Shown here: one piece after another, positions 149 through 7,042 of the stretch
How positions within the stretch are numbered: the first letter of the stretch is position 1
How the letters are laid out: every line of letters starts with the position of its first letter
Source of the DNA: an archaeon
GTDB taxonomy: Archaea > Micrarchaeota > Micrarchaeia > Norongarragalinales > SBBD01
Reading direction: 5' to 3'
Assembly (NCBI GenBank): GCA_005239845.1
Contig: SBBD01000045.1
Location: forward strand, 1-7,288
Length of the DNA: 7,288 nucleotides
Position numbers and translations under genes: made by a program
Notes under the pieces: model-generated
What the model was told of the DNA's origin: nothing
The model's database searches: none
The model's input: only the letters and a program-made list of their open reading frames with translations

Positions 149-1306
149 ATGGAAAAAATTCCAGTGGCGATTCTTGGAGCGACAGGCGAGGTCGGCCAGA
201 ATTTCGTGACAAACCTCCAGAACCATCCGTGGTTCGAGATCGCGGCGCTCTACGCTTCGGAGAGGTCGGCGGGAAAGAGCTATGCGGGCGCCATCGATTA
301 CGGCAGAGAAACATCCAGATGGTTCTGCCACGAGAAGCCCCACAAGAAAATCCTTGAAATAAAAGTCAAAAACTTGAACAACGTTGATGTGGGCGAGTGT
401 GGTCTGTTCTTCTCTGCCCTGCCTTCTGAAATCGCGCTCGAGACCGAGGGAAGGGTCGCGAAGGAAAAGCCAGTCGTCAGCACCGCTTCATCGTACCGCT
501 ATTTCGATGACAGTTTTACGTACCTGCCTGGCGTGAACGAGCCCCACACGAAGATGATCGAAGTCCAGCGCAAGAGCCGCGGCTGGAAAGGATATGTCGT
601 ACCGCAACCCAACTGCACGACGATTGGACTGGCGATGTCCCTGAAGCCGATTTACGATGAATTCGGCCTGAAGAGCGTCACGATGGCATCGATGCAGGCC
701 GTCTCGGGCGCAGGTTACGCCGCGATTGCGGAATGGTTGAAGCAGAGAAAGTCGGAGGGAGGGAATCTGCCCTGTGATTTGCACAATTTCGTCCCGAAGA
801 CTTTCGAAGGCAACGTCATCCCATACATCAAAGACGAGGAGTCGAAGGTCAAGAAGGAGACCGTCAAGCTTTTGGGGAAATTCTCCGGCGGGAAAATCGA
901 GCCGGCAAAGTTCAAGGTCGCTTGCAAATGCAACAGGGTCCCTGTGATACACGGCCACACGGAGTCCGTCTTCATCGAGACCGTGGAGAAGTGCTCGGTG
1001 GACGACTTGAAGAAAGCCTGGAGAAGCTACAGGAGCGAGCCGCAGAAGCTCGACCTGCCCCTTGCCCCGAAGCACCCGATAGTGGTGATGGACGAGGCGG
1101 ACAGGCCGCAGCCGAGGTTCGACTCTTACGTCGAGAAGGGGATGGCCGCAATAATCGGCGGGGTGGAAGCGAACATCTTCGAGAACGGCTTCCAGTACAC
1201 GGTGCTTTCGCACAACGTCGAGCTAGGCGCGGCGAGGGGAGCTGTCCTGGCGGCGGAGTTTCTCCACAAGACCGGACTGATTAACCCAGCAATCGTCACC
1301 CAATGA
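149..1306 (+). CDS. asd: Aspartate-semialdehyde dehydrogenase, archaeal/fungal type
   Basis: This cytoplasmic enzyme reduces 4-aspartyl phosphate to aspartate 4-semialdehyde with NADPH, the second step of the aspartate pathway to threonine, methionine and lysine. The 385-residue product has the N-terminal nucleotide-binding motif GATGEVG (10-16). The catalytic cysteine is C156 in QPNCTT. SGAGY (186-190) and NVIPYI (222-227) are typical family blocks. The block CNRVPVIHGHTE (261-272) holds the conserved histidine, H268 or H270. Length slightly exceeds the roughly 340-360 usual for archaeal members. Family similarity seems to end near GLI (376-378). The last seven residues (NPAIVTQ) are encoded by DNA that, in another frame, reads as the start of the adjacent propeller remnant, so the original 3' end may have been replaced. 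ATG 149 is chosen for its Shine-Dalgarno sequence. No other aspartate-pathway gene is in the window. Identification is confident from motifs. Confidence 0.95.
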   Translation: MEKIPVAILGATGEVGQNFVTNLQNHPWFEIAALYASERSAGKSYAGAIDYGRETSRWFCHEKPHKKILEIKVKNLNNVDVGECGLFFSALPSEIALETEGRVAKEKPVVSTASSYRYFDDSFTYLPGVNEPHTKMIEVQRKSRGWKGYVVPQPNCTTIGLAMSLKPIYDEFGLKSVTMASMQAVSGAGYAAIAEWLKQRKSEGGNLPCDLHNFVPKTFEGNVIPYIKDEESKVKKETVKLLGKFSGGKIEPAKFKVACKCNRVPVIHGHTESVFIETVEKCSVDDLKKAWRSYRSEPQKLDLPLAPKHPIVVMDEADRPQPRFDSYVEKGMAAIIGGVEANIFENGFQYTVLSHNVELGAARGAVLAAEFLHKTGLINPAIVTQ

Positions 1307-2625: not shown

Positions 2626-4173
2626 TTAGGCCTTTTTTCCACGCACAAGCACCAAAGCAGTCACCGCGACGCCCGCAATTGCCAGGATTATCACGTAGAC
2701 GATTAAATCCGAAGAAGGCGCCTGGGGTGTCGTCGGGGTGCCAGTTGCGTACATGCTCACGCTTGATGAAGTTTCCCCGCTAAGGCTTACGTATTTCGTC
2801 CCGTGGTAAACGTTGTCCGAGCTAGCGATGTACAAAAGTTTTCCCGCGAAATTTTCACTCGAAGTCAGAATTCCCTGGGAGTCGGTCGTACCAAGAAGCG
2901 TGTTTTCTTTCCCGTCTTCCGTACCCCAGTATATCGTGGTGCTGGAAAGAGGAGAGCCGTCCGATTTCAGGAACGTGAAAGTGAAAGCGACCTGGTTTTC
3001 TGCAGTGCCAGCGTTTTCGCCCGTCGAAACTGCCACGTTGAAAAGGTTCACTTGGTTTGCAACTCCGCCGGAGACGATATACGATCCGTTGTCAGAAATC
3101 GCCACCGAGTAAACTCCGCTCGACGTGTGTTTCCAAAGCGGGGCGCTGCTGCTTCGCGAGAAAAGGAAAGTGCCGGTTGTCCCTGCCGCGATGTAAGATC
3201 CATCGGAAGAGATCGCCACCGACTCGACCCAGTTGCCAGTGTTGTAGTTCCACGTTGGAGTGCTGGATGAATTTGAAAATAGATAAACGCGGTTGCTCCA
3301 GCTGCCAGCCGCGATGTAATCGCCCGCCGATGAGACTGCCACAGAGGTCACTGAATCACCGACAGTATAACTCCACGAGGGGGTGGCGCTCGCGCTTGTG
3401 AATAGATAGACCTTGCCGTCCGTTGTCGGGACATCGTCGTAGTCGCCAGCCGCGATGTATCCGCCGTTTGCGGAGATCGCCGCCGAGTTCATTGTGCCAA
3501 CGTTTCCCGCATCGTATGTCCAGGACGGCGTGCTCGAACCGCGAGAGAAAAAGAGAACGTTGTCCGCCGAAGCCGCCGAGATGTAATTCCCATCCGAAGA
3601 AATCTTCACCGAGTTCACCAGGCCTTCACTCCCATCCACGCCCTTGTCAGTCGTGTGCGTCCAGAGCGGCGTGCTTGAAGTCCGGGAGAAGACGGAAATT
3701 TTTGAGTACGAGTAGTAGTACGCGTTCGTGTCCCAGCTCCCCGCGACGATGTAACTCCCGTCTGAGGAAATGCTGACAGATACAACTTTTTCGCCGGCGT
3801 CATATGTCAAGAATGGTGTGCTGGACGACCGCGAGAAAAGGTAGACGTTGCCGTCATAGCTCCCCGCGACCAGGTAATTCCCATCGGGCGATATGGCAAC
3901 AGACCTGACCCATCCTCCCGTCGTGTAGCTCCAGACTGGCGTGCTCGATGCGCTGGAGAAAAGGTATACCTTGCCGTCATCGCTTCCAGCCGCGATGTAG
4001 CTGCCGTCGGAAGATATCGAGACGGAACGGATGTCGTCCCCTGCGGCGTAGCTCCAGAGAGGCGATTGGGCCGTCTGCGCAGCAATCGGACTGGCGGCAA
4101 AAGCCAGAGACAGGAAATGCGCGAACAACAGAGCAATTGTCATGCTCAGCAACCTGTTTTTTCTCGAACTCAT
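2626..4173 (-). CDS. Secreted eight-bladed beta-propeller surface protein with C-terminal membrane anchor
   Basis: The 515-residue product begins with a signal peptide: basic MSSRKNR, hydrophobic core about 11-27, likely cleavage after an Ala near 27-32. Residues about 38-382 hold eight repeats of 38-50 residues, each with a W-x-Y/H strand, VxSVxIS-x-DG-x-YIxAGS and VYLFSxxSSTP. This is a WD40/PQQ-like propeller whose repeats share strong sequence identity. Residues about 388-478 resemble an Ig-like or transthyretin-like beta domain, followed by a TP-rich linker (479-488) and a membrane helix (490-510) ending RGKKA. The protein should face outward, anchored at its C-terminus. Two in-frame TTG codons lie upstream, but ATG 4173 is chosen because the TATA box is 32 bases before it; no clear Shine-Dalgarno is seen. 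Ligand is unknown; adhesion or polymer binding is a guess. The tRNA upstream is on the same strand. Confidence 0.93.
   Translation of the reverse strand: MSSRKNRLLSMTIALLFAHFLSLAFAASPIAAQTAQSPLWSYAAGDDIRSVSISSDGSYIAAGSDDGKVYLFSSASSTPVWSYTTGGWVRSVAISPDGNYLVAGSYDGNVYLFSRSSSTPFLTYDAGEKVVSVSISSDGSYIVAGSWDTNAYYYSYSKISVFSRTSSTPLWTHTTDKGVDGSEGLVNSVKISSDGNYISAASADNVLFFSRGSSTPSWTYDAGNVGTMNSAAISANGGYIAAGDYDDVPTTDGKVYLFTSASATPSWSYTVGDSVTSVAVSSAGDYIAAGSWSNRVYLFSNSSSTPTWNYNTGNWVESVAISSDGSYIAAGTTGTFLFSRSSSAPLWKHTSSGVYSVAISDNGSYIVSGGVANQVNLFNVAVSTGENAGTAENQVAFTFTFLKSDGSPLSSTTIYWGTEDGKENTLLGTTDSQGILTSSENFAGKLLYIASSDNVYHGTKYVSLSGETSSSVSMYATGTPTTPQAPSSDLIVYVIILAIAGVAVTALVLVRGKKA
3028..4062 (-). repeat. Eight tandem propeller-blade repeats inside the 2626-4173 gene
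   Basis: Blades by residue: 38-79, 80-120, 121-168, 169-216, 217-266, 267-306, 307-344 and 345-382. Blades 3, 4 and 5 carry extra loops. The strand-B block (SVxISxDGxYIxAGS) stays recognisable even in the DNA: on the + strand GCCGCGATGTA begins several units, near 3185, 3310, 3451 and 3990. This points to fairly recent duplication of blades. Confidence 0.8.
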
Positions 4174-4201
4174 CGTCAACAATGAAATTTTGGCAACGCC
4201 A

Positions 4202-4209: not shown

Positions 4210-4263
4210 CTTTTGCTAACTGTCGGCATTTGAGATTTATTGGAATTGGTAGCGGGGGGTGGA

Positions 4264-4291
4264 GTTTCCGAAAGCGGCGGAGCCGTCTTCT
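4264..4291 (-). other. tRNA intron 2, T loop (position 59/60)
   Basis: The intron is 28 nt. It forms an internal hairpin: 4290-4282 pairs with 4278-4270, eight of nine positions pairing, including one G-U, with loop UCC. Outside it, UUC (4297-4295) pairs with GAA (4268-4266), flanked by 3-nt bulges AGA (4293-4291) and ACU (4265-4263). Cutting after the second base of each bulge removes exactly 28 nt and leaves the 7-nt T loop TTCAAGT. The central helix has an A-G mismatch at one end, so this is a relaxed bulge-helix-bulge. Confidence 0.75.
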
Positions 4292-4338
4292 CTTGAACCA
4301 CCGGCCTCCGGGTTATGAGCCCGGCGGGCACTCCATGC

Positions 4339-4366
4339 TTCGGGGCAATCAGTTTTTCCGATTGCT
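4339..4366 (-). other. tRNA intron 1, D loop
   Basis: The insert is an 8-bp hairpin, GCAATCGG (4365-4358) with CTGATTGC (4352-4345), loop AAAAA. Below it GGG (4371-4369) pairs with CCC (4344-4342), with a 3-nt bulge CAA (4368-4366) on one side and AAG (4340-4338) on the other. Cutting after the second bulge base removes 28 nt. Because AAGC occurs at both ends (4367-4364 and 4340-4337), a 27-nt excision is also possible; the choice changes the mature D loop by one A. Confidence 0.72.
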
Positions 4367-4404
4367 TGCCCTACCCCGCTACGTAGAAACCGTCGAACCC
4401 CACT

Positions 4405-4411
4405 GATAAAT
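4405..4411 (-). promoter_or_regulatory. TATA-like box of the initiator tRNA gene
   Basis: On the minus strand this reads ATTTATC. Its centre is about 27 bases before the first tRNA base (4380), which puts the transcription start at or just before the mature 5' end. It sits directly after the stop codon (4417-4415) of the membrane-protein gene, so the tRNA has its own promoter in a gap of only 34 bases. Confidence 0.55.
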
Positions 4412-4414
4412 GGT

Positions 4415-4987
4415 TTACGTTTTCGGGAGTTTAGTCGTCTGGGGTTTTTCAGAGGGAACCATCACCTTGCGCAACGTTCCGCCCAGAACCGCACCCGCCG
4501 CAACTATCCCGACAATCACGAAGGCCGAGAAGAAGAAACTCGTCAGAATATTTTGCAGGAGCGATTCCGCAGTGAAGTTCGTTCCAGTCGCGGCCGAGGC
4601 CGCCGTCAGGATGTCGGACAGTTTGCTGGTTAAAATTCCGTGGATTATTCTGTTTGTCGTCCCGTTTATCGCCGCGGTTATCGCCAGGAACGATCCGGGG
4701 ACAAAAAGCCCCGCGATCAAAATCGACCCGCTCAAACATCCCGCGCGGAATCTCCACCAGTAGTGGACCCCCCCGCCGAGGAAATAACCGACAAGGATCC
4801 CGCCGAGCAGGTATGCGAAGATTCCCCCGCCAAGGAAAAAGCTCCCGAGGAAGGCGAAGAAGAAGCCGTAAAGGACCGGCCTGAGGTATGTCCTGCGGTC
4901 CATTTTCCTGCTCAGGAGGAAAATCAGCAGGCTAAGGAGAACGCAACCGAACGCCACGTAAACCAGCCTGAACGTGAATTCGTCCAT
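4415..4987 (-). CDS. Small glycine-rich polytopic membrane protein of unknown function
   Basis: The 190-residue protein has about five hydrophobic segments (roughly 6-26, 36-53, 55-73, 83-105 and 148-170), a basic cytoplasmic-type loop SRKMDRR (26-32), GGG motifs at 53-55 and 71-73, and a Lys/Pro tail. The stretch 62-92 (LGGILVGYFLGGG, then RAGCLSGSIL) resembles the GG-x-GY-x-GG and R-x-G-x-x-G pattern of archaeal DUF5518-like proteins; this is a recollection of pattern and not a search result. The loop at about 106-145 is polar with alternating Ile/Leu and may be an external amphipathic helix. The frame is open up to 5110, but the extra N-terminus would cross the divergent promoter region and lacks membrane character, so ATG 4987 is chosen. 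The function cannot be named. It is divergent from the oxidoreductase and could share regulation with it. Confidence 0.8.
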   Translation of the reverse strand: MDEFTFRLVYVAFGCVLLSLLIFLLSRKMDRRTYLRPVLYGFFFAFLGSFFLGGGIFAYLLGGILVGYFLGGGVHYWWRFRAGCLSGSILIAGLFVPGSFLAITAAINGTTNRIIHGILTSKLSDILTAASAATGTNFTAESLLQNILTSFFFSAFVIVGIVAAGAVLGGTLRKVMVPSEKPQTTKLPKT

Positions 4988-5023
4988 CGCATCAACCACT
5001 CGCTTGAGATTGGTGGGTGCTCG

Positions 5024-5104: not shown

Positions 5105-7042
5105 ATGCACGGTTGGGCTGGCAATGTGTTGCGGGTTGATCTCAACCGAGAAAAGGTGGTCAAGCAGCCGTTAGACCCACAGGTCGCGCGCGATTTCATA
5201 GGCGGCCGAGGTTTGAATTCAAAGGTTCTTTTCGACGAGGTGAAGCCCGGGATAGACCCGCTAGGTCCGGAAAACGTCTACTGCATGTCTTCGGGCCCGC
5301 TCACCGGGACGGCAATCAGCCTTTCGAGCAGAATCCAGGTCAGCACGATTTCCCCGCTCAGCTACATCCTCGGCGACGGGAACTCCGGTGGCGACTTTCC
5401 AGCGCTGCTCAGGCGCGCGGGTTACGATCAAATAGTGATAACTGGCCGGGCGGGCAAGCCGAAGTATCTCTGGATTGATAACGACAAGGTCGAACTGAGG
5501 GGCGCCTCCGACGTTTGGGGCAGGAACAACTACGAGACTGTTGACATGCTCCAGGAGGACCTCGGCAATGACGTCAGGGTCGCCTCGATCGGGCAGGCCG
5601 GCGAGAACCTCGTCAGGTTCGCTTGCACGGTTTTTGACCGCCACTTCACGGCATCGAGGGGCAGCGGCGCCGTCCTCGGGTCGAAGAACCTCAAGGCGAT
5701 CGCGGTCAGGGGCACGGGAAAGATCGAGCCGGCGAAACCGGACGAGTACATGCAGCTTGTGCGCGAGGACACCCAGTTCTTCCTCACGGACAGGACCCAG
5801 CGAGAGATCCACAAGTACGGGACGCACCTCGGCGTGGTTAACTGGTATCCAGGCTACAGGTACTTCAAGAAGCTCCTCAGCAGGGAGGAAATCCCGTTCG
5901 AGCTCACGCCGGAAGGTTTCAAGAAGGACGAGATCGGGCGCTACGGGTGCTTCGGCTGCGTCGTCGCTTGCAGGGACGTCTTCAAGATACCGGAGGGGCC
6001 ATACAAGGGCGAGGTGGGGAAGGCGCTCGAGTACGAGACGATTTTCTGCACTGGAATAAACTGCGGGATAATGAAGCAGACGCCGATCAGGGTAATCAAC
6101 AACCTCTCGGACAAGTACGGGATGGACACGATCCCGCTCGGGAACGTCATCGCATTCGCGAAGGAGCTCTACAGCCGCGGAATAATCACAAAGGCGGACA
6201 CTGACGGACTTTCGCTGGATTGGGAGGAAGTGGACGACCAGATCGAGCTCATCCACAGGATTGCCATGAGGGAGGGTGTCGGGAACAAGATGGCCGAGGG
6301 GATGTACAGCTACGCAAAGATCGTCGGGAAGAACGCGATGGATTATTGTTATCACGTGAAGGGGCTGAGCCGCGGGCCGGCCCTGTATCCTGTCGGCATT
6401 TTCACTCTCGCTCACGCGACATCGACGCGCGGCGCCGACCACCTAAGGGGAAGGAGCTGGGCGTTCGGGGAGAACGACCCCGATATATTCCCGAATTGGG
6501 TGAAGACAGGGCTTATGCCGAGGGATGCCGTGCCAGCGCTCGTGCTGTCAGAGAACGCGTGCACGCTGCCCGACACAATCGGGCGCTGCAAGGGGAGCGT
6601 CAACAACTGGCCAAGCGCCGTCCCGCTGTGTTTCAAGTATCCCGTCTGGGGCGGCATAGCGAAGCTCTTGACCGCGTTGACCGGCGTCGATTACTCGGAG
6701 GCAAGTGTCGTGGAGGCGATGGAGAGGATCTACTCCATCGAGAGGGCGCTTCTTATCAGGCAAGGCATCACGCGCAGGCAGGACAGGCTCGTGCTTCCGG
6801 CAGACCAGTTGGGGACGCCGGAGGAGAAGCAGGCGCAGGAGGAGCACGCGCGCATGCTCACGGACTACTACAAGGCGAGGGGCTGGGAGCCGGAGAACGG
6901 GGTGCCGACTCGCGCCACTCTCGAGAAGTACGGGCTGAAGTACGTGGCGGACGAGCTTGCGTCGCACGGGCCGTACAAAGAGTGGGACGGGCCGCCTCTC
7001 TGGGCGCTTGACAAGTATCCGCACGGCGGCAAGCGGGCGTAA
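5105..7042 (+). CDS. aor: Aldehyde:ferredoxin oxidoreductase, tungsten bis-pyranopterin family
   Basis: The 645-residue enzyme belongs to the AOR family, which oxidises aldehydes to carboxylic acids and passes electrons to ferredoxin in the cytoplasm. Pterin-contacting residues R76, N93 and G95 fall at the same numbers as in Pyrococcus furiosus AOR, as recalled. The [4Fe-4S] ligands are CFGCVVAC (C282, C285, C289) and C495 in DTIGRC, where D490 matches a pterin-binding Asp. EYET (309-312) and H446 in RGADH correspond to the active-site Glu and His. SKNLKAI (about 193-199) is also a family block. Length exceeds the roughly 600-620 usual because of a charged C-terminal tail (about 560-645) rich in Glu, Lys and Trp. 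No ferredoxin, pterin-synthesis or partner-subunit gene is adjacent, so the subtype (AOR, FOR, GAPOR or WOR) and substrate remain open. ATG 5105 gives the standard N-terminus (GxxLRVDL). GC-rich codons throughout. Confidence 0.96.
   Translation: MHGWAGNVLRVDLNREKVVKQPLDPQVARDFIGGRGLNSKVLFDEVKPGIDPLGPENVYCMSSGPLTGTAISLSSRIQVSTISPLSYILGDGNSGGDFPALLRRAGYDQIVITGRAGKPKYLWIDNDKVELRGASDVWGRNNYETVDMLQEDLGNDVRVASIGQAGENLVRFACTVFDRHFTASRGSGAVLGSKNLKAIAVRGTGKIEPAKPDEYMQLVREDTQFFLTDRTQREIHKYGTHLGVVNWYPGYRYFKKLLSREEIPFELTPEGFKKDEIGRYGCFGCVVACRDVFKIPEGPYKGEVGKALEYETIFCTGINCGIMKQTPIRVINNLSDKYGMDTIPLGNVIAFAKELYSRGIITKADTDGLSLDWEEVDDQIELIHRIAMREGVGNKMAEGMYSYAKIVGKNAMDYCYHVKGLSRGPALYPVGIFTLAHATSTRGADHLRGRSWAFGENDPDIFPNWVKTGLMPRDAVPALVLSENACTLPDTIGRCKGSVNNWPSAVPLCFKYPVWGGIAKLLTALTGVDYSEASVVEAMERIYSIERALLIRQGITRRQDRLVLPADQLGTPEEKQAQEEHARMLTDYYKARGWEPENGVPTRATLEKYGLKYVADELASHGPYKEWDGPPLWALDKYPHGGKRA

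Follow-up and report, generated by a model that had tools for sequence, protein, structure and literature searches.

The initiator tRNA-Met gene of Hadarchaea is, on balance, probably the most intron-broken tRNA gene known, with up to six BHB introns that can together exceed the exons in length, each of which is cut by an M. jannaschii-like EndA encoded by a single gene and with no specificity loop, and with introns that come, go and slide so fast that sister lineages share no splice site. The stretch of DNA analysed here (7,288 nt; hereafter the window), which is the entire contig C107 of bin G000, very probably contains one member of this series, a Hadarchaeum-lineage initiator tRNA-Met gene in which two 28-nt inserts, at tRNA positions 14/15 and 59/60, are BHB introns predicted to be spliced by EndA. 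These two introns are a modest case within the lineage: alone, the window gene is another example of a known intron kind, and together with its relatives it is new by intron number and by the enzyme expected to act on it. If true, the lineage-wide reading would break the reported association of many non-canonical introns with an endonuclease that has two subunits or carries the loop. Almost all protein synthesis begins with initiator tRNA; a gene that would require two to six correct excisions for each molecule therefore tests the cost of introns, and a natural series of zero to six introns, in which the same gene shows gains and losses as well as what looks like a slide, makes intron turnover testable. 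Because one short EndA without the Crenarchaea-specific loop was found, the lineage also allows the proposed connection of endonuclease type with intron freedom to be tested cleanly.

The precursor gene, with its encoded CCA, spans 134 nt at positions 4247-4380, as seen in the sequence and from ARAGORN on the spliced form; these coordinates agree exactly with the original prediction, to which the minus strand is added here, as none had been named. Exon 1 (4367-4380, minus strand throughout) corresponds to tRNA positions 1-14 and is followed by predicted intron 1 in the D loop at 14/15 (4339-4366, 28 nt). Exon 2 (4292-4338) covers positions 15-59, with the anticodon CAT at 4315-4317, and predicted intron 2 lies in the T loop at 59/60 (4264-4291, 28 nt). 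Exon 3 (4247-4263) supplies positions 60-73 and the CCA (4247-4249). All four stems, the anticodon CAT, A1-U72, the three G-C pairs closing the anticodon loop and the encoded CCA are present as had been described, and the roughly 28 extra nucleotides attributed to each of the D and T loops measure exactly 28 and 28 nt. The anticodon arm is uninterrupted, in line with the earlier statement that its loop has no canonical intron. The spliced form that had been put at 75 nt has that predicted length without CCA and is 78 nt long with it. In this form 21 of 21 stem pairs are formed, and both A1-U72 and GGG/CCC are in place.

The gene escapes tools that have no model of such introns: ARAGORN and Rfam scans of the raw window returned no tRNA, and ARAGORN called tRNA-Met(cat) only after both inserts had been removed. 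The lowest-energy fold of the spliced form (-39.5 kcal/mol) is not the cloverleaf (-36.0 kcal/mol), and that of the unspliced precursor is likewise not a cloverleaf; we take these folds as a limit of the energy model, yet they were counted against the intron reading. A TTTAT at 4406-4410 on the minus strand, 26-30 nt upstream of position 1, could be a TATA-box core, and the motif 'catttatc' is found again upstream of the initiator gene in several relatives.

Both inserts fit the relaxed form of the BHB motif, in which the central helix has three of four pairs and is flanked by two 3-nt bulges; the parser seeks 3-nt bulges only and rewards pairs, so the bulge length is assumed. At 14/15, A9-G12 faces CCCG of the insert, giving three pairs and one mismatch of A9 with G above an 8-bp inner helix, with an outer exon helix of 0 bp. 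At 59/60, U54-A57 faces GGAA, again with three pairs and one mismatch, above a 4-bp inner helix, and the T stem provides an outer helix of 5 bp. When the exons were kept and the insert alone was shuffled with its dinucleotides preserved (20,000 trials), the 14/15 fit was equalled in 0 trials and the 59/60 fit in 75 when both central and inner helix had to be at least as good, or in 173 by helix sum. For the D-loop intron, cuts at CA^A and GA^A would instead give a 27-nt intron and an 11-nt D loop; the 28-nt reading was chosen because it leaves a 10-nt D loop, as in uninterrupted relatives, and symmetric 3-nt bulges, and the exact bonds cut there are probably those of that reading. Self-splicing as a group I or II intron was rejected, since the inserts are only 28 nt long against a catalytic core of hundreds of nucleotides; the window has no Rfam match.

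Cutting by the tRNA-splicing endonuclease EndA is the likely mechanism for the window inserts. Each insert would fold as its own hairpin, and the 4-bp central helix, between two 3-nt bulges, would arise from pairing of the intron's 3′ end with the 5′ exon strand, which is A9-G12 at the D-arm site and U54-A57 at the T-loop site. EndA would cut between the second and third nucleotides of each bulge, and a tRNA ligase would then join the exons. That the gene is transcribed, cut and joined, and that mature initiator tRNA arises solely in this way, is what we infer from its structure.

The gene placing the contig is that for aspartate-semialdehyde dehydrogenase (Asd, 149-1306, plus strand), which shares 91% identity with its counterpart in Candidatus Hadarchaeum sp. 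DR5_53_9 (G060) and 71-74% with four other Hadarchaeum/Hadesarchaea records. Asd matches within the order of bin G000 reach at most 47%, and none was found in the two searched genomes of the bin's own family. In the Asd tree the window joins DR5_53_9 with support 100/100. The order Asd, middle ORFs, tRNA, upstream ORF is the same in the separately deposited DR5_53_9 contig, where a homologue of the ORF upstream of the window tRNA (4415-4993, minus strand, without a family match) again lies upstream of the tRNA, with 76.8% DNA identity over 82 nt. Other contigs of bin G000 point the opposite way: RpsB has identities of 78 and 73% with the same two own-family genomes and of 46-49% with four Hadarchaea, and SufB is present in both own-family genomes and in none of four Hadarchaea. 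From the Asd identities and tree, the shared gene order and the contrary RpsB and SufB results, we judge on sequence comparison that the contig is misbinned, a Hadarchaeal gene inside the bin of a different archaeal lineage. The window also encodes a WD40/beta-propeller-like protein (2626-4182, minus strand) with hydrophobic stretches near both ends, as seen by eye, whose DNA aligns with the sister's counterpart only in parts, and an aldehyde ferredoxin oxidoreductase (AFOR_N + AFOR_C; 5105-7042, plus strand).

Initiator genes were collected from 22 genomes around H. yellowstonense (G062) by pattern searches and fetched stretches, making 23 genes with that of the window (L032, L033, L034 and L036 are those of G060-G063, L032 being that of the sister DR5_53_9). 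Of 40 candidate loci, 20 were parsed, the other 20 being chance matches, one duplicate, or tRNA genes from genomes more distant from G062; the final parse held 30 entries, of which 23 were parsed and seven (L236-L242) yielded nothing. Two pairs of genes from different genomes are identical (L159/L161 and L234/L235), and the initiator gene was not found in several genomes near G062 (e.g. G072, G073, G076, G080, G086). Among the further genomes left out, initiators are mostly intact, with L141 carrying an insert in the anticodon loop.

Predicted introns number zero in three of the 22 genomes (G063, G070, G082), one in three, two in one (G066), three in six, four in five, five in three (G061, G062, G065) and six in one (G064). 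At least four are thus predicted in nine of the 22, although two of these nine, G078 and G079, have identical genes. The six in G064 lie at 4/5, 15/16, 30/31, 37/38, 45/46 and 59/60 and make up 157 of the gene's 232 nt. Across the lineage the sites are 4/5, 10/11, 14/15, 15/16, 20a/21, 30/31, 37/38, 45/46 and 59/60, with two 37/38 introns parsed as 38/39, one nucleotide apart and with the same product. Introns at 59/60 occur in 13 of the 23 genes and introns at 14/15 in five, and G066 (L158) has the window's two sites and none besides. Two introns in one initiator gene had been called uncommon; for this lineage that does not hold, two being a low-to-middle count in a range of 0-6 among the 22 relatives.

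All 23 spliced forms, that of the window included, match the Hadarchaeal initiator profile with 0 mismatches and every stem paired, a result partly built in, since these genes were in view when the profile was drawn up; the T-stem pairs, which the profile leaves free, are still formed in 23 of 23. The three uninterrupted genes give the mature form directly. A1-U72 and the three G-C pairs at 29-31/39-41 are found in every gene, and ARAGORN calls tRNA-Met(cat) for all 23 spliced forms as against four of the 23 unspliced.

Three or four central pairs are present in 66 of 66 introns, a geometry that the parser seeks, and all 66 were therefore set against shuffled inserts (1,000 shuffles, with free choice among equivalent boundaries). 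In this control 45 of the 57 distinct introns beat 95% of their shuffles, including every distinct intron at 4/5, 10/11, 15/16, 20a/21, 30/31, 45/46 and 59/60 (11 of 11 at this last site) and four of five at 14/15. The 12 that fail comprise 11 at the anticodon site (37/38 or 38/39) and that of L164 at 14/15 (0.17); in G064, five of the six introns pass and the one at 37/38 fails (0.066). The fold being weak at the anticodon site, the evidence there is mainly position and mature product.

Paired changes within the hairpins point in the same direction. At 59/60 all 11 distinct sequences form the first four inner pairs, and pairs 1, 2 and 3 show changes on both sides; at 14/15 pairs 1, 3 and 4 are formed in five of five, all with both-side changes, while pairs 2, 5 and 6 are formed in four, three and four of the five. 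At 30/31, five inner and four central pairs are present in 8/8. The inner helices are kept by paired changes, in small sets of 5 (14/15) and 11 (59/60) distinct sequences. Taken with the BHB fit against shuffles, the relatives with introns at the same sites and the relatives with none, these changes bear out the earlier claim of two non-canonical archaeal introns in the initiator tRNA; that all initiation may depend on their removal, as was also proposed, is a conjecture.

Turnover of the introns appears to be rapid. The window's sites (14/15, 59/60) and those of its sister G060 (10/11, 30/31, 37/38, 45/46) have none in common. The window's 14/15 intron nevertheless resembles 10/11 introns, with z 4.7 against that of G060 and, for eight of ten genes, no more than 2 in 500 shuffles equalling the likeness, and is unlike most introns at other sites; the exceptions (z 2.5 to 3.6) occur at 45/46 in L167 and L172, at 59/60 in L160, L166 and L169, and at 20a/21 in L234 and L235. 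The 14/15 and 10/11 forms differ in which side of the intron a GGCA lies on, and the acceptor G-run (5-7) and the D-stem G-run (10-12) are alternative partners for the C-run at the intron's 3′ end. These features suggest that one D-arm intron slid by 4 nt; base composition could explain part of the likeness.

Several further observations concern the surroundings of the gene. Upstream of 10/11- and 4/5-type genes, part of the tRNA 5′ end is repeated as GGTAGCGGG or a similar sequence, which can form a hairpin and often continues into GCTACC; the copy is carried by L154, L156, L159-L161, L164-L168, L172, L234 and L235 and absent from the window and from three of the other four 14/15-type genes. 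This AGCGGGG copy was considered as a further acceptor intron and was instead read as leader and left uncounted. In the sister DR5_53_9, an ORF just downstream of the initiator gene and convergent with it (L032:9703-10413, plus strand) is weakly similar to the I-DmoI homing endonuclease (E 2e-4), with a LAGLIDADG_3 match (E 0.0012) below its cut-off; at the corresponding place the window has no ORF. Judged by this similarity, the ORF's product might move introns or convert the gene. Rfam tRNA counts are 45 and 47 in G063 and G070, whose initiator is uninterrupted, and 39, 28, 33 and 28 in G060, G061, G062 and G064; perhaps the whole tRNA set is intron-rich in the latter, or these MAGs are less complete.

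It is very unlikely that the window gene is a pseudogene, a decaying copy in a cell served by an intact second initiator gene. Such a gene could lie elsewhere in the genome of the window organism; bin G000, 70% complete, contains no other initiator anticodon arm, a result given little weight because the contig is misbinned and the bin belongs to a different lineage. The stems of the window gene, however, are all intact, its CCA is encoded, both inserts fit the BHB motif, and the gene is interrupted in 19 of the 22 parsed relatives. With the spliced sequence as query, matches were obtained in 26 of 33 genomes, and among the 19 interrupted-gene relatives the 18 searched (all but G081; the MAGs are incomplete) showed no further full-length copy: in 17 of these 18 every match fell at the known locus (those of G083 and G084 span an intron), and G064 gave none over threshold. 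Slightly less credible still is the idea that the inserts are retained, so that the mature RNA has enlarged D and T loops. Each does fold as a hairpin able to sit on the tRNA surface, but the T and D loops would be split, the sites vary among relatives, some lying in acceptor and anticodon stems, where a retained insert would disrupt the tRNA, and three relatives have no inserts.

An artefact, with the inserts or the gene created by chimeric metagenome assembly, might be suspected because the window is a short whole contig in the wrong bin; the same gene order in a separately deposited Hadarchaeum contig and the recurrence of same-site introns in other genomes make this extremely improbable. 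The remaining explanation, a split or permuted tRNA with pieces joined in trans, draws on 59/60 being the junction site of the permuted Thermofilum pendens initiator tRNA, as given in the available part of PMC3218864. Here a single strand carries all parts in their normal order, over 134 nt, and the idea, contradicted by this gene order, has a negligible chance of being correct. Two BHB introns removed by splicing remain the preferred reading of the window gene.

The enzyme expected to remove them was sought as PF01974, which matched in 27 of the 33 genomes around G062, the sister G060 included; it occurs once in 25, twice in G090, and as two pieces in one frame in G093. Among the intron-bearing genomes, no match was found in G065 (five introns) and G077 (three introns), both incomplete. 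A search for a second subunit at a loose cut-off in seven genomes gave one match over the cut-off in each; three weak extra matches in two genomes (E 0.16-0.30) look like noise, and a very divergent second subunit may exist. For the 179-aa EndA of H. yellowstonense, the best solved match is the two-domain 5x89, and the best single-domain match is 1a79, the M. jannaschii enzyme; the alignment with 1a79 has two gaps of one residue each near residues 34-37 and none further on. The H. yellowstonense protein has no counterpart of the 9-residue insertion with the KPR motif in the A. pernix structures 3p1z and 3ajv.

The M. jannaschii EndA is described as homotetrameric in the available part of PMC8707768. 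K44, P45 and R46 of A. pernix EndA are reported as key residues of the Crenarchaea-specific loop, and such loops have been tied to diverse introns (both in excerpts of PMC12397907). Going by the sequences compared, Hadarchaea would be an exception to this link. Two reports, each available in part, soften the exception: cutting of a minimal BHB at 65 °C is described for the M. jannaschii enzyme (PMC8707768), and both canonical and non-canonical intron positions are also reported in three thermophilic euryarchaeal methanogens (PMC3218864).

The accessible portions of earlier work place the maximum number of introns per archaeal tRNA at three (PMC4033280, PMC3218864), and that of the tRNAscan-SE 2.0 paper speaks of two or three per gene (PMC8450103). 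In the open-licence literature, among the matches listed, neither Hadarchaeal tRNA introns nor more than three introns per archaeal tRNA appear in any title or abstract start. The sites themselves have precedents, as 14/15 and 59/60 are known elsewhere as splice or junction sites (PMC3218864, in part). The lineage of bin G000 has its own initiator introns, at 59/60, 9/10 and in the variable region (L117, L118, L121, L024, L026); these five parsed genes, picked for looking interrupted, have one intron each, unlike the Hadarchaeal multiples. The Atabeyarchaeia and Freyarchaeia (Asgard), a different lineage, resemble Hadarchaea in that introns are often non-canonical; more than half of their tRNA genes are multi-intron, with 228 introns in three genomes (PMC11291895, from the text available).

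Other initiator tRNAs also depend on BHB splicing. That of Nanoarchaeum equitans is encoded by two separate genes joined at 37/38, unlike the single gene of the window, and that of Thermofilum pendens shares 59/60 with the window as its junction but has permuted parts and a further splice site at 37/38, whereas the window gene keeps the normal order and an intact anticodon arm (both in the excerpted PMC3218864). There is also a likeness to the multi-intron tRNA genes of the Thermoproteales (Pyrobaculum, Thermofilum), which, as here, have several non-canonical BHB introns per gene. Their maximum, within what is available of PMC4033280 and PMC3218864, is three, in contrast to up to six predicted in the Hadarchaeal initiator, and their endonuclease, as described in the former, has two subunits and an extra loop, where in Hadarchaea one short EndA gene was found.
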